Assembly: GCF_039538065.1 (NCBI RefSeq)
Contig: NZ_BAABBR010000001.1
Coordinates: 682,001-746,000 of the forward strand
DNA: 64,000 bases
DNA from: Sphingomonas rosea
Lineage (GTDB): Bacteria > Pseudomonadota > Alphaproteobacteria > Sphingomonadales > Sphingomonadaceae
Direction of reading: 5' to 3'
Below the pieces are notes generated by a model. It did no database searches. It was not told the origin of the DNA and worked only from the letters and a program-made list of their open reading frames with translations. Shown in pieces: positions 24,293-62,224 of this stretch (position 1 is the first letter of the stretch; each line of letters starts with the position of its first letter). The position numbers were made by a program, and so were the translations under genes.

Positions 24293-24383
24293 TGGCGGAG
24301 CGAGAGGGATTCGAACCCTCGATACGGTTTTGCCGTATACTCACTTTCCAGGCGAGCGCCTTCGACCACTCGGCCACCGCTCC
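24293..24383 (-). tRNA. tRNA-Ser (anticodon GGA)
   Basis: The 91-nt gene folds as a class II tRNA. The acceptor stem GGAGCGG pairs with TCGCTCC (one G-U pair), followed by discriminator G and an encoded CCA. The anticodon stem CTCGC/GTGAG frames a loop with GGA, which reads UCC and UCU serine codons. A long variable arm (TACGG/CCGTA) and the T arm (GAGGG, TTCGAAT, CCCTC) complete the fold. Confidence 0.97.
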
Positions 24384-56526: not shown

Positions 56527-59500
56527 TCAATAGGTCGGGCAGTTGATGACTCGCGCCTTGGGGATGACCTCGGCGTCACGCGGGTGGCGGGCCATGGGCG
56601 GGCGGCTCGGCCCTGCCCCGTCTCCGCGCCCGACCTGCGGATCGAAGTGCTGGCTGTCGCTCAGCGAGCGGAGCCGCCAGCTGTCGTCCTCGAGCCGGCT
56701 GGCGATCAGGTGGCATACCGCCTCGTCGTGCTGGACGATGCCGTGCACGACCATCAGCCGGGCGCCCATCACCACCTTGCGCTGGGCGGCGAAGGCATCG
56801 GGCCAGACGACGAGGTTGGCATTGCCCGTCTCGTCCTCGAGCGTGATGAAACACACGCCCTTGGCGCTTCCGGGGCGCTGGCGGATGAGCACAAGTCCTG
56901 CGAGGCTGACGCGCTTGCCGTAGCGGACGTCGCGCAGGTCGGCGGCCCGGACGAAGCCGCGCGCCGCATAGTGATCGCGCAGGAACTGCATCGGATGCGC
57001 CTTCAGGCTGAGGCGCGTGGTCTGGTAGTCGCTGACCACATGCTCGGGGAGTGGCATGGCGGGGAGGATGGCTTTCTCCCTTTCCTCCCCCTCCTCGCGG
57101 GCACGAGCGGCGGCGAAGAGCGGAAGCTCGGGCGCGGGCCGGAGCGTCCGCGCGTCCCACAACGCTTGGCGGCGATCCATCCCGATCGAGCGGAAGCAGT
57201 CGGCCTCGGCGAGGCGGACGACGGCATGGGGCGGGACCTGGCCCCGGCGATGGAGGTCCTCGACCGCCTTGTAGGGGGCCGCCGCGACCAGCCGCGCCGC
57301 ATCCATCGCGCGCAGTCCCTCGACCTGGCGGAGGCCGAGGCGCAACGCGACTTCGGCATGCGTCCTTCGACTTCGCTCGGGACGAACGATGCCCTGGGTC
57401 GCGACATCCGTTCGTTCGTCCTGAGCGGAGTGGAGCGCAGTCGAAGGGCGCGGGACCTCGAGAGAGCAATCCCAGCCGCTCTCGTTCACGTCGACCGGCA
57501 GCACCGTCACTCCGTGCGCCTGCGCGTCCTTCACGATCTGGGCGGGGGCGTAGAAGCCCATGGGTTGCGAATTGAGCAGCGCCGCGGCGAAGGCGGCGGG
57601 ATAACGCCAGCGCAGCCAGCTCGAGACGTAGACGAGATGCGCGAAGCTCGCCGCATGGCTTTCGGGAAAGCCATATTCGCCGAAGCCGCGGATCTGGTGG
57701 AAGCAGCGTTCGGCGAACTCGCGCTCGTAGCCGCGCGTGACCATCCGCTCGACCATCTTGTCCTGGAGGAGGTCGATGGTGCCGCGCGAGCGGAAGGTCG
57801 CCATCGCCTTCCTGAGCTGGTTGGCCTCGGCGCTCGAGAATTTGGCCGCGTCGAGGGCGATCTTCATCGCCTGCTCCTGAAACACCGGCACGCCGAGCGT
57901 CCGCTTGAGGATGCGCTCGAGTTCGTCGGGCGGGCCATGGTCGGGCGAGGGGCGCGGATAGTCGACCGGCTCCTTGCCCTGCCGGCGCTTCAAGAAAGGG
58001 TGGACCATGTCGCCCTGGATCGGGCCCGGGCGGACGATCGCGACCTCGATCACCAGGTCGTAGAAGCAGCGGGGCTTCAAACGCGGGAGCATGTTCATCT
58101 GCGCCCGGCTCTCGATCTGGAAGACGCCCAGCGAATCGCCCTTGCACAGCATGTCGTAGACGCGGGGCTCCTCGCGCGGGACGGTGGCGAGGTCGAGTTT
58201 TCGCCCATGCACTTCCTCGATCAGCCCGAAGCATTTGCGAATGCAGGTCAGCATGCCCAATGCGAGCACGTCGATCTTGAGGATGCCGAGATCCTCGATG
58301 TCGTCCTTGTCCCATTCGATGAAGGTGCGGTCGGGCATCGCGCCGTTGCCGACCGGCACCGTCTCGATCAGCGGTCGCTCGGTCAGGATGAACCCGCCGA
58401 CATGCTGGCTGAGGTGGCGCGGCATGCCGATCAATTGCTCGGCGAGCTTGATCGTCCGGGCGAGATGCGGGTCGGTGAGGTCGAGCCCCGCCTCGGTGAC
58501 GTGGGTTTCGGTGACGTCCTCGCCCCAGCCCCAGATGGTCCCGGCGATCGAAGCGCAAATGTCCTCGGACAGGCCCATCACCTTGCCGACCTCGCGGATC
58601 GCCGAGCGCGGGCGATAGTGGATCACGGTAGCGCACAGGCCGGCGCGGTCGCGGCCATATTTCTCGTAGATATGCTGGATCACTTCCTCGCGCCGCTCGT
58701 GCTCGAAATCGACGTCGATATCCGGCGGCTCCTTGCGCTCCTCGGAGATGAAGCGCTCGAACAGGAGGTCGGTGGTGGAAGGGTCGACCGCGGTGACCGA
58801 CAGGCAATAGCAGACCGCGCTGTTCGCCGCCGAGCCGCGGCCCTGGCAAAGGATCGGCGGCTCGCAGCTTCGAGCAAAGGCGACGATGCTGTGAACCGTC
58901 AGGAAGTATCGCGCGAAGTCGAGCCGCTCGATCAGCCGGAGCTCGTGCTCGATCTGCCTGACGACCTTGTCGGGGACGCCATCGGGATAACGCTCGGCCG
59001 CCCCCTCCCAGGTGAGGTGGATCAGTTGCTCCTGCGGAGTGCGCCCCTCGGGCACGCTTTCGCGCGGATATTCGTAACGCAGCTCGTCGAGGCTGAAGTG
59101 GAGGCCGTCGGCGAAGTCGCGCGTCGCGGCAATGGCGTGGGGCCAGCGCTCGAACAGCCGGATCATCTCGTCCGGGCCCTTCAGATGCCGCTCGGCATTA
59201 GGATTGAGCCGCGTGCCGGCAGTGGCGAGCGTCACCTTCTCGCGGATGCAGGTCACGATGTCCTGCAGCGGGCGCTTTTCGGGGACGTGGTATAGGACGT
59301 CGTTCGACGCGAGGATGGTCGCGCCGACACTCCGCGCCAGACGGTCGAGCCGCTCGATCCGCGCGAGGTCGTCGCCGCGATAGAGGTGCGTGGCAGCGAT
59401 GTGGCGGAGGTCGGGCAACGCGGCGCGGATCGCGGGCAGCCGCGCCTCGAACGCGTCGAGGTTCTCGCCCGGGCAGGCGATGAAGGCGATGCCCTCGCGG

Positions 59501-60021
59501 TGCTCCGCGACATCGTCGAGGGTGAGGTGACACTCGCCCTTGGGAGCGCGGCCCTGCCCAAGGCTCAGCAGGCGCGACAGGCGGGCATAGCCTTCGCGGT
59601 CGCGCGGGTAGGCGAGGAACTCGATATCCCCGCCCTCCCCCTGCGGGGAGGGGGCCGGGGCGAGGCCGGGTTCGTGAAGTCCCGGGCGGATCGCGACAAC
59701 CCCTCCCCCGGCCCCTCCCGCAGGCGGGAGGGGAGACGATTGGATCACCAGCCGGCACCCGATCAGCGGCTTCAGCCCGGCCGTCTTGGCATTGGTGTGG
59801 ACCCGCACGACCCCGGCCAGCGTGTTGCGGTCGGCGACCCCCATCGCGTCCATACCGAGTTCCATCGCGGTCGGAATGAGCTCGAGCGCGTCGGACACCC
59901 CGCGCAGGAACGAGAAGGGCGTGGCGATGCCGAGCTCGACGAACGCGGCCTTGGGCATCGGCGGGAGCGGACCGTCCTCGCGCTCGAGCCGGCGGCGGGC
60001 ATAGCCTTCCTGTTCAGGCAT
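56527..60021 (-). CDS. dnaE2: Error-prone DNA polymerase DnaE2 (ImuC) with two in-frame repeat insertions
   Basis: The 1164-residue polymerase copies damaged DNA with ImuB. The PHP domain starts with FVELGIATPFSFLRGVSDAL; the polymerase core has PDIDVDFEHERREEVIQHIY with catalytic aspartates and QHVGGFILTERPL; the C-terminal OB domain shows GKRVSLAGLVLIRQRPGSAK and FITLEDETGNANLVVWP. Two stretches do not belong to the family: about 38 residues of proline, glycine and alanine after RLVIQ in the PHP domain, and about 33 residues between WDCSLE and VALRLGLRQ. Each is the translation of a palindromic DNA repeat. Without them the length is about 1093, normal for DnaE2. It lies 9 bp after imuB. Confidence 0.95.
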   Translation of the reverse strand: MPEQEGYARRRLEREDGPLPPMPKAAFVELGIATPFSFLRGVSDALELIPTAMELGMDAMGVADRNTLAGVVRVHTNAKTAGLKPLIGCRLVIQSSPLPPAGGAGGGVVAIRPGLHEPGLAPAPSPQGEGGDIEFLAYPRDREGYARLSRLLSLGQGRAPKGECHLTLDDVAEHREGIAFIACPGENLDAFEARLPAIRAALPDLRHIAATHLYRGDDLARIERLDRLARSVGATILASNDVLYHVPEKRPLQDIVTCIREKVTLATAGTRLNPNAERHLKGPDEMIRLFERWPHAIAATRDFADGLHFSLDELRYEYPRESVPEGRTPQEQLIHLTWEGAAERYPDGVPDKVVRQIEHELRLIERLDFARYFLTVHSIVAFARSCEPPILCQGRGSAANSAVCYCLSVTAVDPSTTDLLFERFISEERKEPPDIDVDFEHERREEVIQHIYEKYGRDRAGLCATVIHYRPRSAIREVGKVMGLSEDICASIAGTIWGWGEDVTETHVTEAGLDLTDPHLARTIKLAEQLIGMPRHLSQHVGGFILTERPLIETVPVGNGAMPDRTFIEWDKDDIEDLGILKIDVLALGMLTCIRKCFGLIEEVHGRKLDLATVPREEPRVYDMLCKGDSLGVFQIESRAQMNMLPRLKPRCFYDLVIEVAIVRPGPIQGDMVHPFLKRRQGKEPVDYPRPSPDHGPPDELERILKRTLGVPVFQEQAMKIALDAAKFSSAEANQLRKAMATFRSRGTIDLLQDKMVERMVTRGYEREFAERCFHQIRGFGEYGFPESHAASFAHLVYVSSWLRWRYPAAFAAALLNSQPMGFYAPAQIVKDAQAHGVTVLPVDVNESGWDCSLEVPRPSTALHSAQDERTDVATQGIVRPERSRRTHAEVALRLGLRQVEGLRAMDAARLVAAAPYKAVEDLHRRGQVPPHAVVRLAEADCFRSIGMDRRQALWDARTLRPAPELPLFAAARAREEGEEREKAILPAMPLPEHVVSDYQTTRLSLKAHPMQFLRDHYAARGFVRAADLRDVRYGKRVSLAGLVLIRQRPGSAKGVCFITLEDETGNANLVVWPDAFAAQRKVVMGARLMVVHGIVQHDEAVCHLIASRLEDDSWRLRSLSDSQHFDPQVGRGDGAGPSRPPMARHPRDAEVIPKARVINCPTY
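57364..57447. repeat. Palindromic repeat element inserted in frame in dnaE2 (C-terminal half)
   Basis: The outer arms CCTTCGACT (57364-57372) and AGTCGAAGG (57439-57447) are perfect complements, as are the inner arms GGACGAACG (57380-57388) and CGTTCGTCC (57413-57421). The whole 84 bp equals 28 codons without a stop. This matches by memory a CGAACG/TTCGAC repetitive extragenic palindrome seen in many proteobacterial genomes. Here it lies inside a gene. Confidence 0.85.
59628..59733. repeat. Second, G/C-rich palindromic element inserted in frame in dnaE2 (PHP domain)
   Basis: A left half of C and G runs around CTGCGGGG (59640-59659) and a right half around CCCGCAGGCGGGAGGGG (59717-59733) are inverted copies of each other, and each half is itself a hairpin (CTCCC/GGGAG type). 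The element encodes proline-, glycine- and alanine-rich residues that are absent from ordinary DnaE2 proteins. Exact borders cannot be set without homologues. Confidence 0.8.
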
Positions 60022-60030
60022 GACCCGGCC

Positions 60031-61566
60031 TCACGCGAATAGCCCGTGGACGAACCACAAGGGCGCGCCGCCGCGGCCGTCACCGACGACGCCCTCGCGG
60101 AAAATCCAGAAGCGGCGGCCCTCGCTGTCCTCGACCTTGTAATAGTCACGCAGCCGGGCGGTGGAGCGCTCGCGCCACCATTCGGGCGAGATCCGCCGTG
60201 GTCCCTGCGCGCGGGCGATGTCATGCACCTTGCGGCGCCACACGAAGCGCCGCGGCAGCCCCTCGGGAGTGGCGTAGATGACCGCCACTTCCTCGGGAGC
60301 ATCGAGGAGCCGGGTGGGCTGGTCTGCGGGGGGCGCGGCGACGGCGGGCGGCGACGGGTCGGTGTCGACTCCCGCGCCCCAGCCGGCCGCGCGCTCGGGC
60401 ACATGGCTGTCGACCCGGACCGGCCGCCGCACCTTTGACGGGCCGAGCCGGACGCTCAGCCGGTCGATCAGCGCCGCCACCGCCGTCTCGCCCGTGGCCT
60501 CTCCGAGCAAGGCGTCCTGTGCCGAATCGAGCTTCTCCCACCAGCGCACCTCGAGCGCGAAGGCGTCGATCCCGAAGCCGGGGTCGATTCCCTGCCGCTC
60601 GAGCATGCCCGACAGGAGCCGATGGAGATGGTCGGGCGCGCGCGTCGGGATCGAGGTCGCGACCTGGACCTCGCCGAGACTGCCGTCGACCCGGAAGGCG
60701 GTCAGGACGAGGTGCCGTGCGCCGAGCTTGCGGGTCGCCAGTTCGCGCGCCAGCGGCGGGACCAGCCGGGCCAGCGCCTGTGCCGCGGCCTCGGGATGAA
60801 CCACCGGCTCCTTGATCGGCAACAGCGCGCGCGGCGGCGGATCCTCGGGCAAAGGGGTAAGCGGCTCGGGCTTGCGGCCAAGCGCGCGGTCGAGCGCATC
60901 GAGCGGGTGTTCGTCCTTGGGAAAGCGCCGGGCGAGCGCCTTGCGCGGCACGCCGGCAAGGTCGCCGACCTGCTTCAGCCCCAGCCGCACCAGCATGTGA
61001 TTGGCCACCGCCGACAGCCGCAGCGCCGCGATCGGGAGCGGCGCCAGGACGCGCGCCAGTTCCTCGTCATGGACCGGGCGCGGCTCGGCAGCATAGCGGG
61101 CGAGGCCCCATGCGGCGCCGGCGGTCGGGGCGATCGCGGCCCGCGCGGTGACCCCCATGGCGGCGAACCGCGCTTCCATGTCGCGCATCAGCCCCTTCTC
61201 GTCGCCGAACAGGTGCGCGACCCCGCTGACATCGAGCCGCAGCGCATGCGCGCCATCGACCTCGACCAGCGGCGACCAGCGGCTCGCCCAGCGCGCCGCC
61301 GCGCGTAGCCATGCTTCCTCGCCCGCGACGTCGGCTTGCTCGGCCTCGAGTCCGGGATCGAGCGCCCGCGCGTCGGTCAGCCGACCGCCGGGCCGTGCGC
61401 CGCGCTCGGCGGCCGCCGGGGTGACCGCATGGATCAGCTGGCCGTGACGCCCCTCGAGCGTGAGCACCACCGGCCGGGCCAGCGCCTCATCCGGTGCGTC
61501 GCTGCCATTGGCCCAGCGCTCGATCGCCAGGTTCGGCAGCCACAGGGAGCAGATTCGGCGGTTCAC
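60031..61566 (-). CDS. imuB: Y-family polymerase-like protein ImuB
   Basis: The 511-residue protein begins with NRRICSLWLPNLAIERW, where true Y-family polymerases have catalytic aspartates; ImuB lacks them and serves as the hub that links DnaE2 to the sliding clamp. The palm and finger parts include VTARAAIAPTAGAAWGLAR and LGLKQVGDLAGVPRKALARRF. The C-terminal 130 residues carry LRDYYKVEDSEGRRFWIFRE, typical of ImuB in alphaproteobacteria. The start overlaps the end of imuA by 80 bp. Confidence 0.94.
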   Translation of the reverse strand: MNRRICSLWLPNLAIERWANGSDAPDEALARPVVLTLEGRHGQLIHAVTPAAAERGARPGGRLTDARALDPGLEAEQADVAGEEAWLRAAARWASRWSPLVEVDGAHALRLDVSGVAHLFGDEKGLMRDMEARFAAMGVTARAAIAPTAGAAWGLARYAAEPRPVHDEELARVLAPLPIAALRLSAVANHMLVRLGLKQVGDLAGVPRKALARRFPKDEHPLDALDRALGRKPEPLTPLPEDPPPRALLPIKEPVVHPEAAAQALARLVPPLARELATRKLGARHLVLTAFRVDGSLGEVQVATSIPTRAPDHLHRLLSGMLERQGIDPGFGIDAFALEVRWWEKLDSAQDALLGEATGETAVAALIDRLSVRLGPSKVRRPVRVDSHVPERAAGWGAGVDTDPSPPAVAAPPADQPTRLLDAPEEVAVIYATPEGLPRRFVWRRKVHDIARAQGPRRISPEWWRERSTARLRDYYKVEDSEGRRFWIFREGVVGDGRGGAPLWFVHGLFA

Positions 61567-62224
61567 GCCCCACCACCCATCGTCCGGGCAGCCGCCGGCG
61601 CGAGCGGAAGAGTTCGGCGTCCCAGCGTGGGCTGCCCGGGGCCTTGGGGTCGAAGGAATGGGTTTCGCTCGGCGCGCTGCCCAGCCGCCAGCGCTCGCGC
61701 GCGCCGCTGAGATTGGCGCTGCCCTGCAACCGGACTAGCCAGCAGGCGACCCCGGACTTTTCCGCCGCCACGGCCAGCCGCCGTGTCGCGGTGAAGTCGA
61801 GCGCCTGCGGATCGCCCCACAATTCGCCGATGACGCCGCCTAGCGCAGGGCATCGCAGGCCTTCCTCCATCGCCCACAGGGCAGCCTTGGCGTCGCGCGC
61901 CTCGACATGGATGAGCTCGGCGGCCAGTGGCCCGAGACCGGCCGCATGGACCCGCCCGCCCTCGAGGATCGCCATCCGCTCTTGGATCCACAGCAAGGGC
62001 CGGGCCGGAGCAACCTGCGCGAGGACGAAGCCGGTCCATCCGGCGTCGCGCGGAGAATCGGCGAAAAGTTCGGACAGGATGGCGCTGCCGGCACCCGGCG
62101 AAAGCCGGAGCGCGGGTTTGTCGCGGGCAGGCAAAGGCCATTGGTGCCCGGCCTGTGCCGGAAAACCATCCTCTTCAGCCGCACGGCTCCCGCCGCCGGC
62201 GACAAGGCGAAAACCTCGATCCAC
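61487..62224 (-). CDS. imuA: ImuA, RecA-like component of the inducible mutasome
   Basis: The 245-residue protein starts with a GTG at 62224; the ribosome-binding site is weak, so the start is not certain. It shows GWTGFVLAQVAPARPLLWIQE, GGVIGELWGDPQALDFTATRR and LRLQGSANLSGARERWRL-type segments that mark ImuA. A clear Walker A motif is not seen, as is usual for the short alphaproteobacterial form. The last 27 codons lie inside the imuB start region. ImuA is needed for damage-induced mutagenesis with ImuB and DnaE2. A LexA box lies 19 bp upstream. Confidence 0.88.
   Translation of the reverse strand: MDRGFRLVAGGGSRAAEEDGFPAQAGHQWPLPARDKPALRLSPGAGSAILSELFADSPRDAGWTGFVLAQVAPARPLLWIQERMAILEGGRVHAAGLGPLAAELIHVEARDAKAALWAMEEGLRCPALGGVIGELWGDPQALDFTATRRLAVAAEKSGVACWLVRLQGSANLSGARERWRLGSAPSETHSFDPKAPGSPRWDAELFRSRRRLPGRWVVGREPPNLLPVAAEPGDRALGQWQRRTG

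Follow-up and report, generated by a model that had tools for sequence, protein, structure and literature searches.

How did an 84-bp palindrome come to lie in frame inside a gene whose product is an error-prone DNA polymerase? Does the protein gain anything from it? These questions are raised by the dnaE2 gene of Sphingomonas rosea. We address them in the window (the whole stretch of DNA analysed, 64,000 nucleotides), in its source genome (G000, 2.68 Mb) and in 71 genomes of the genus.

The dnaE2 gene and its two variable sites

The features concerned have the following window coordinates.

56527..60021, minus strand: dnaE2, error-prone DNA polymerase, 1164 aa (NCBIfam NF004225, 1374 bits; cut-off 939)
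57343..57456, minus strand: site A, residues 856-893, between the motifs LE and RLGLR; 4 residues in the shortest relatives
57364..57447, minus strand: palindromic element 1, codons 859-886 of dnaE2 (PSTALHSAQDERTDVATQGIVRPERSRR), 84 bp, in frame and stop-free
57360..57378: outer arm of element 1, pairing with 57433..57451 (19 nt, 89%)
57433..57451: partner of the outer arm
57367..57389: inner arm of element 1, pairing with 57412..57434 (23 nt, 87%)
57412..57434: partner of the inner arm
59617..59748, minus strand: site B, residues 92-135, in the PHP domain, family 2
59633..59665: arm of the site B palindrome, pairing with 59700..59732 (33 nt, 73%)
59700..59732: partner of the site B arm
60031..61566, minus strand: imuB-like gene, lying upstream of dnaE2 (Pfam IMS, 32.1 bits; cut-off 23.2)
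61487..62224, minus strand: imuA-like gene (weak ImuA_translesion match, 36 bits, below the cut-off of 150)

The polymerase gave profile matches to the PHP, pol3 alpha, finger, HHH_6 and OB-fold domains. It is classed as DnaE2 by the family model together with imuA- and imuB-type neighbours, the ImuA match being weak and below cut-off. The imuA-like gene had no Pfam match, and both neighbouring reading frames are open. The nearest DnaE2 among the best 80 of 592 confirmed named loci is that of Parasphingopyxis (63% identical). Core dN/dS is 0.10-0.16 (six pairs, five including the window's gene), and the gene is therefore maintained by purifying selection. A tRNA gene on the minus strand (24296-24383) is the sole Rfam match in the window at gathering score; the same search gave no match at site A.

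An earlier note on this DNA had described an in-frame, stop-free block of 84 bp with two nested pairs of perfect 9-bp arms. Both points hold: the block is exactly codons 859-886, and the 9-bp cores are seen by eye within the longer inverted-repeat arms. Its extent had been given as 28 codons plus flanks, which is right for the palindrome, but the full block spans residues 856-893. Since site A has 38 residues here and 4 in the shortest relatives, about 34 are extra. Positions 57360-57451 fold with z = -3.6 (none of 200 shuffles folded equally well), and the whole site A insert folds with z = -2.8. The element 1 half pattern, with up to 3 mismatches, has one match in the window and none in 100 shuffles. 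The two shuffle tests reject a chance palindrome at 57364-57447.

The AlphaFold model (mean pLDDT 82) has the fold of bacterial polymerase III alpha. Its pLDDT is below 50 at residues 861-887, in site A, and 101-128, in site B, and each of these stretches is flanked by two strands. Site A sits where the model has a beta-hairpin turn, shortly ahead of the helix-hairpin-helix region; a flexible loop at this place in the model agrees with the tolerant loop supposed earlier. The low pLDDT speaks against an insert derived from an ordered domain. A single mobile palindrome had been proposed, and element 1 does occupy site A, but there is a second insertion, at site B, which comes from another repeat family and folds with z = -4.5 (59632-59733).

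Copies of the repeats and build of the unit

A genome search for other copies, suggested earlier as a check, found them. The source genome contains 43 element 1 halves with at most 3 mismatches, and the reversed control pattern has 0 matches, so the objection that no other copy exists falls away and the description as a dispersed palindromic repeat stands. With at most 2 mismatches, the element was found in 36 of 71 genus genomes (reversed control, 1 match over all). G029 has the most halves, 62 at that threshold.

Each half of the element is a hairpin in its own right. The unit, derived from 152 units in five genomes, has a 6-bp stem (CGTCCT/AGGACG), a 12-nt loop and an unpaired tail of AACGA type. 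Its GAAC end is partly due to selection because units were chosen by the loop and by 3 of the 4 letters of GAAC. Stem pair 3 co-varies, being C-G in 94 units and G-C in 49. It is paired in 144 of 152 units against 81 expected under independence, and pair 4 in 109 against 88, both expectations coming from shuffles that ignore the kinship of copies. Pairs 5 and 6 show little gain over column composition.

The element had been taken to be mostly intergenic, and codon usage in the flanks agrees. Of 26 elements in the source genome, 24 are not in a coding frame; the other two, in dnaE2 and in a 2-oxoacid dehydrogenase E2 gene, have flanks that share one coding frame, without a stop. Five genomes (four covered in part) supplied a sample of 96 elements, the DnaE2 copies of four relatives not being among them; 89 lay outside a coding frame and 7 were flagged within one: dnaE2, E2 (three times), L227, L257 and L258. 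The flag at L258 is doubtful, as this element adjoins a likely start codon. Judging by familiar motifs, the host at L227 is presumably a carbamoyl-phosphate synthase small chain, and that at L257 we take to be an acyl-CoA carboxylase.

Family 2, a GC-rich repeat of PLPPAGG type, has 10 matches in the source genome, its copy in dnaE2 included. The two families adjoin each other at G000:C1:1818790-1818875 (L011, L217), where an open reading frame has its 3' end and where they may form its C-terminal tail; from its motifs, we take this frame to encode a membrane hydroxylase. The RAYT profile (PF01797) has no match in the source genome, which rejects a RAYT-driven REPIN there. It matches in 3 of 61 genus genomes, and these three loci contain no copy of family 1 (that of element 1) or family 2.

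Site A in relatives, the E2 linker and DnaE1

DnaE2 was found in 68 of 71 genus genomes; the other three had no match at the cut-off used. Four rows are incomplete at site A, three at contig ends (G003, G061 and G063) and one split (G010, with a short loop by motif). Split dnaE2 frames occur in a few relatives (G010, G077). In G031, dnaE2 matches are spread over three contigs (C62, C150 and C151), the main one and two more.

Site A holds a palindromic repeat in 22 of the 64 readable genus sequences: family 1 in 11, family 2 in 10 and a CGTC-type REP in one. The remaining 42 have a conserved non-palindromic segment (9) or a loop of 4-14 residues (33), and the earlier statement that ordinary DnaE2 proteins continue here with almost no gap is a fair one. 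The site A loop is a recurrent landing pad for at least three repeat families in the genus, their mutual unrelatedness being judged by eye. Fold z is -2.5 or lower in 20 of the 22 repeats and -1.4 in G007 and G085, the latter carrying a single half. All 22 inserts have frames open across both flanking motifs, in part by construction because rows were chosen as stop-free stretches. Of 13000 codon-shuffled inserts, 134 were assigned to family 1 and 267 to family 2, a false-call rate of 1-2%. Site B was classed as palindromic in 14 of 66 readable genus sequences (2 of the 68 rows are incomplete there); G020 counts among the 14 through its family match, and its fold is weak (z = -0.8).

A tree was built from 73 rows (67 from the genus and 6 others), with insert columns excluded and L214 (G074) omitted. 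Over the 69 rows scored, site A needs at least 17 switches between palindrome and none, or at least 18 among family states; site B changes state at least 7 times. These counts do not separate gain from loss, and they come from a quick tree with some weak forks and long branches, on which the outgroup rows do not fall on one side. Two sister pairs, G033/G066 and G071/G080, differ in site A occupancy.

Homologues had been expected to lack exactly this block. Relatives without it do exist, but the close ones variously carry the same family, an unrelated palindrome or a short loop. Similar arms are kept in G000, G029, G021 and G083, and the spacer between the arms varies freely among carriers. In the same clade as G000, G020 has an unrelated palindrome, and G011 and G017 have loops of 13-14 aa. 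Conserved sequence of equal length but without a palindrome, if found in close relatives, had been named as evidence against an insertion. A segment of that kind (RSWGSTAL...PDSLP, 37-39 aa, z from -0.6 to 1.6) does occupy site A in nine genus members (L037, L039, L041, L044, L045, L178, L179, L180 and L182), but these belong to another clade, with DnaE2 72-75% identical, and the closest relatives (85-88% identical) are without it. It is perhaps an old domesticated insert. In G015 (L043), this segment stands beside a family 1 repeat at site A.

Beyond the genus, 84 other DnaE2 sequences were compared, nearly all of them from Alphaproteobacteria and 80 of them named (the best 80 of 592 confirmed and hence not a random sample). 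Site A is palindromic in 8 of the 84 and long and non-palindromic in 12; site B is palindromic in 1 and incomplete in 1. Given these 12 and the nine genus segments, not every site A insert is a recognisable repeat. Nine genomes carry inserts of other families, and in the three genomes tested the insert has counterparts dispersed over the genome that carries it, with at least 70 matches in G009, at least 68 in the L099 genome and a few (16) in the L098 genome, the insert's own place and both strands being counted. The G009 insert (L197:1153-1284) fits CGTC family 1 by eye. The L099 sequence (L099:5533-5709) is an uncultured Erythrobacter DnaE2 with a long site A palindrome that has dozens of matches in its own genome. 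A third variable place, near residue 190, has inserts resembling translated repeats in L095, L105, L121 and L173 from other Alphaproteobacteria.

The second intragenic copy in the source genome, of family 1, lies in the flexible linker of the 2-oxoacid dehydrogenase E2 (L007:1085-2464; G000:C1:127655-129034). Among 30 E2 loci (from the best 30 of the 67 genomes that matched), the linker between the lipoyl and subunit-binding domains is readable in 27 and was called as family 1 in 11 (one also flagged as family 2), family 2 in 4 and neither in 12. Close relatives differ here too: G000, G029 and G017 have family 1, G020 and G021 have family 2, and G011 and G083 have none. When the family 1 inserts of both proteins, DnaE2 and E2, are taken together, 18 of 22 forward halves give the peptide PSTSL and 17 of 19 reverse halves give VRPERSR, counts that are not independent because some inserts are inherited. 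The matching hairpin of DnaE1, judged by loop length, has a repeat-sized insert in 0 of 20 genomes, its loop being a few residues longer in 4; DnaE2 site A is occupied in 9 of the same 20.

Origin of the insert and relation to known systems

We consider it highly probable that a mobile palindrome of REP-like build inserted into a loop of DnaE2 that tolerates it and persisted there as an in-frame, stop-free and harmless insert. A non-autonomous palindrome of two inverted hairpin units would have inserted at the beta-hairpin tip, where an insert that is in frame, stop-free and harmless would be retained. The site A segment is presumably translated and would form a disordered loop some 38 residues long. 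In different lineages, palindromes dispersed in the genome would have landed in the loop and been lost or replaced; the repeats would spread in a transposition-like way, and copies that break genes would be purged. Element 1 itself presumably moved by transposition, and the hotspot would reflect selection against insertion elsewhere rather than DNA targeting. Tolerance alone leaves unexplained why DnaE2 and E2 are hit so frequently among many loop-bearing proteins.

Site A might instead attract palindromes at the DNA level, through a target sequence, SOS-induced transcription or repair synthesis, so that insertion rate and not only tolerance would shape the pattern. We think this unlikely. It would fit the meeting of at least three families of unlike sequence at one place in the genus, and many genes bearing REPs are noted in one report to be genes of DNA synthesis and repair (Di Nocera et al. 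2013, PMC3733652). Yet mutually unlike families would require a common target, 13 empty sites that were inspected have no common palindrome by eye, and the insertions lie in loops or linkers in both DnaE2 and E2. The E2 gene, presumably not an SOS gene, has the same pattern. A broader proposal is that the DnaE2 hairpin loop is a landing pad across the Alphaproteobacteria as a class, on which many palindromic repeat families would converge because their spread is tied to the induction of dnaE2 by DNA damage, such that an error-making polymerase records its genome's current selfish repeat; we give it a small chance of being right. The earlier note had gone as far as exaptation, and we found no evidence for a benefit. 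Selection of the insert for altering DnaE2 (its partner binding, activity or mutation rate) seems to us very improbable. The arms are indeed alike in four genomes, and the same report speculates on a possible contribution of REP insertions to mutators (PMC3733652), but the unrelated palindrome of G020, the short loops of G011 and G017 in the same clade, the freely variable spacer and the disorder of the segment in the AlphaFold model all speak against such selection.

The two remaining explanations can be given almost no credence. Ordinary length variation in a low-complexity linker, with a palindrome arising by chance or codon bias, draws on the variability of the region in many relatives and on the 12 of 84 other sequences with long non-palindromic inserts; it does not fit the folding of site A (z = -3.6) and site B (z = -4.5), the dispersed copies of both families in the source genome or the rarity with which codon-shuffled inserts are called as either family. 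Decay of dnaE2 to a pseudogene, in which insertions would be unopposed, might be read from its two insertion sites and from the split frames of G010 and G077. Against it stand the open frame of 1164 aa and the open imuA- and imuB-like neighbours, and the core dN/dS rejects it. Insertion of a mobile palindrome into a tolerant loop is the reading that we retain.

In one polymerase, different repeats thus seem to have occupied a single loop again and again, and the replicative paralogue shows none in the 20 genomes examined; tolerance and targeting are therefore open to test against each other. The relatives offer a natural series of loop insertions in DnaE2. Where proteins of these bacteria contain unusual peptides (PSTSL..., VRPERS..., PLPPAGG...), a translated repeat can be the source, and the locus is an example of selfish DNA ending up within a working protein.

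Coding palindromes are best known from Rickettsia. The Rickettsia palindromic elements, also cited in PMC3733652, likewise lie in frame in otherwise normal proteins. They belong to a different bacterial group, and the likeness drawn earlier is apt as one of working. Compared with the DnaE2 of imuA-imuB-dnaE2 cassettes, the window's protein has the same gene, domains and neighbours and differs in its two extra loops of repeat sequence, which are disordered in the model. REPINs share with element 1 the dispersed, inverted pairs of hairpin units and the short unpaired tail, but element 1 is without the GTAG tag, its unit ending in GAAC (an end partly due to selection), and PF01797, the mark of a cognate RAYT, is absent from the source genome. 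It is accordingly placed neither with GTAG REPs nor with REPINs. CGTC REPs (families 1-4) are defined by an unpaired CGTC at one end, an 8-9 bp stem starting with A-T pairs, a loop of 4-5 and a tail of CCA type (PMC3733652); element 1, with its 6-bp stem, 12-nt loop and AACGA tail, falls outside them. CGTC REPs are without a dedicated transposase, a feature that element 1 shares as far as the RAYT search goes.

Dispersed, palindromic, mostly extragenic and in some copies in frame, element 1 works like an intragenic REP-like element. REPs inside genes, many of them genes of replication and repair and with DnaE2 named as a host, were reported in 2013 (PMC3733652), and the kind is therefore known. 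This report is the one direct precedent found in the literature searched, in which neither element 1 nor the repeated use of a single DnaE2 loop by several families was found in print. The GTAG/CGTC REPs that it describes and element 1 are both short, mostly intergenic palindromes that form inverted dimers and lie in some cases within genes, DnaE2 included. In the available part of the report, the site common to two hosts is that in recB of two Xanthomonas, whereas here several families converge on one place in many species.
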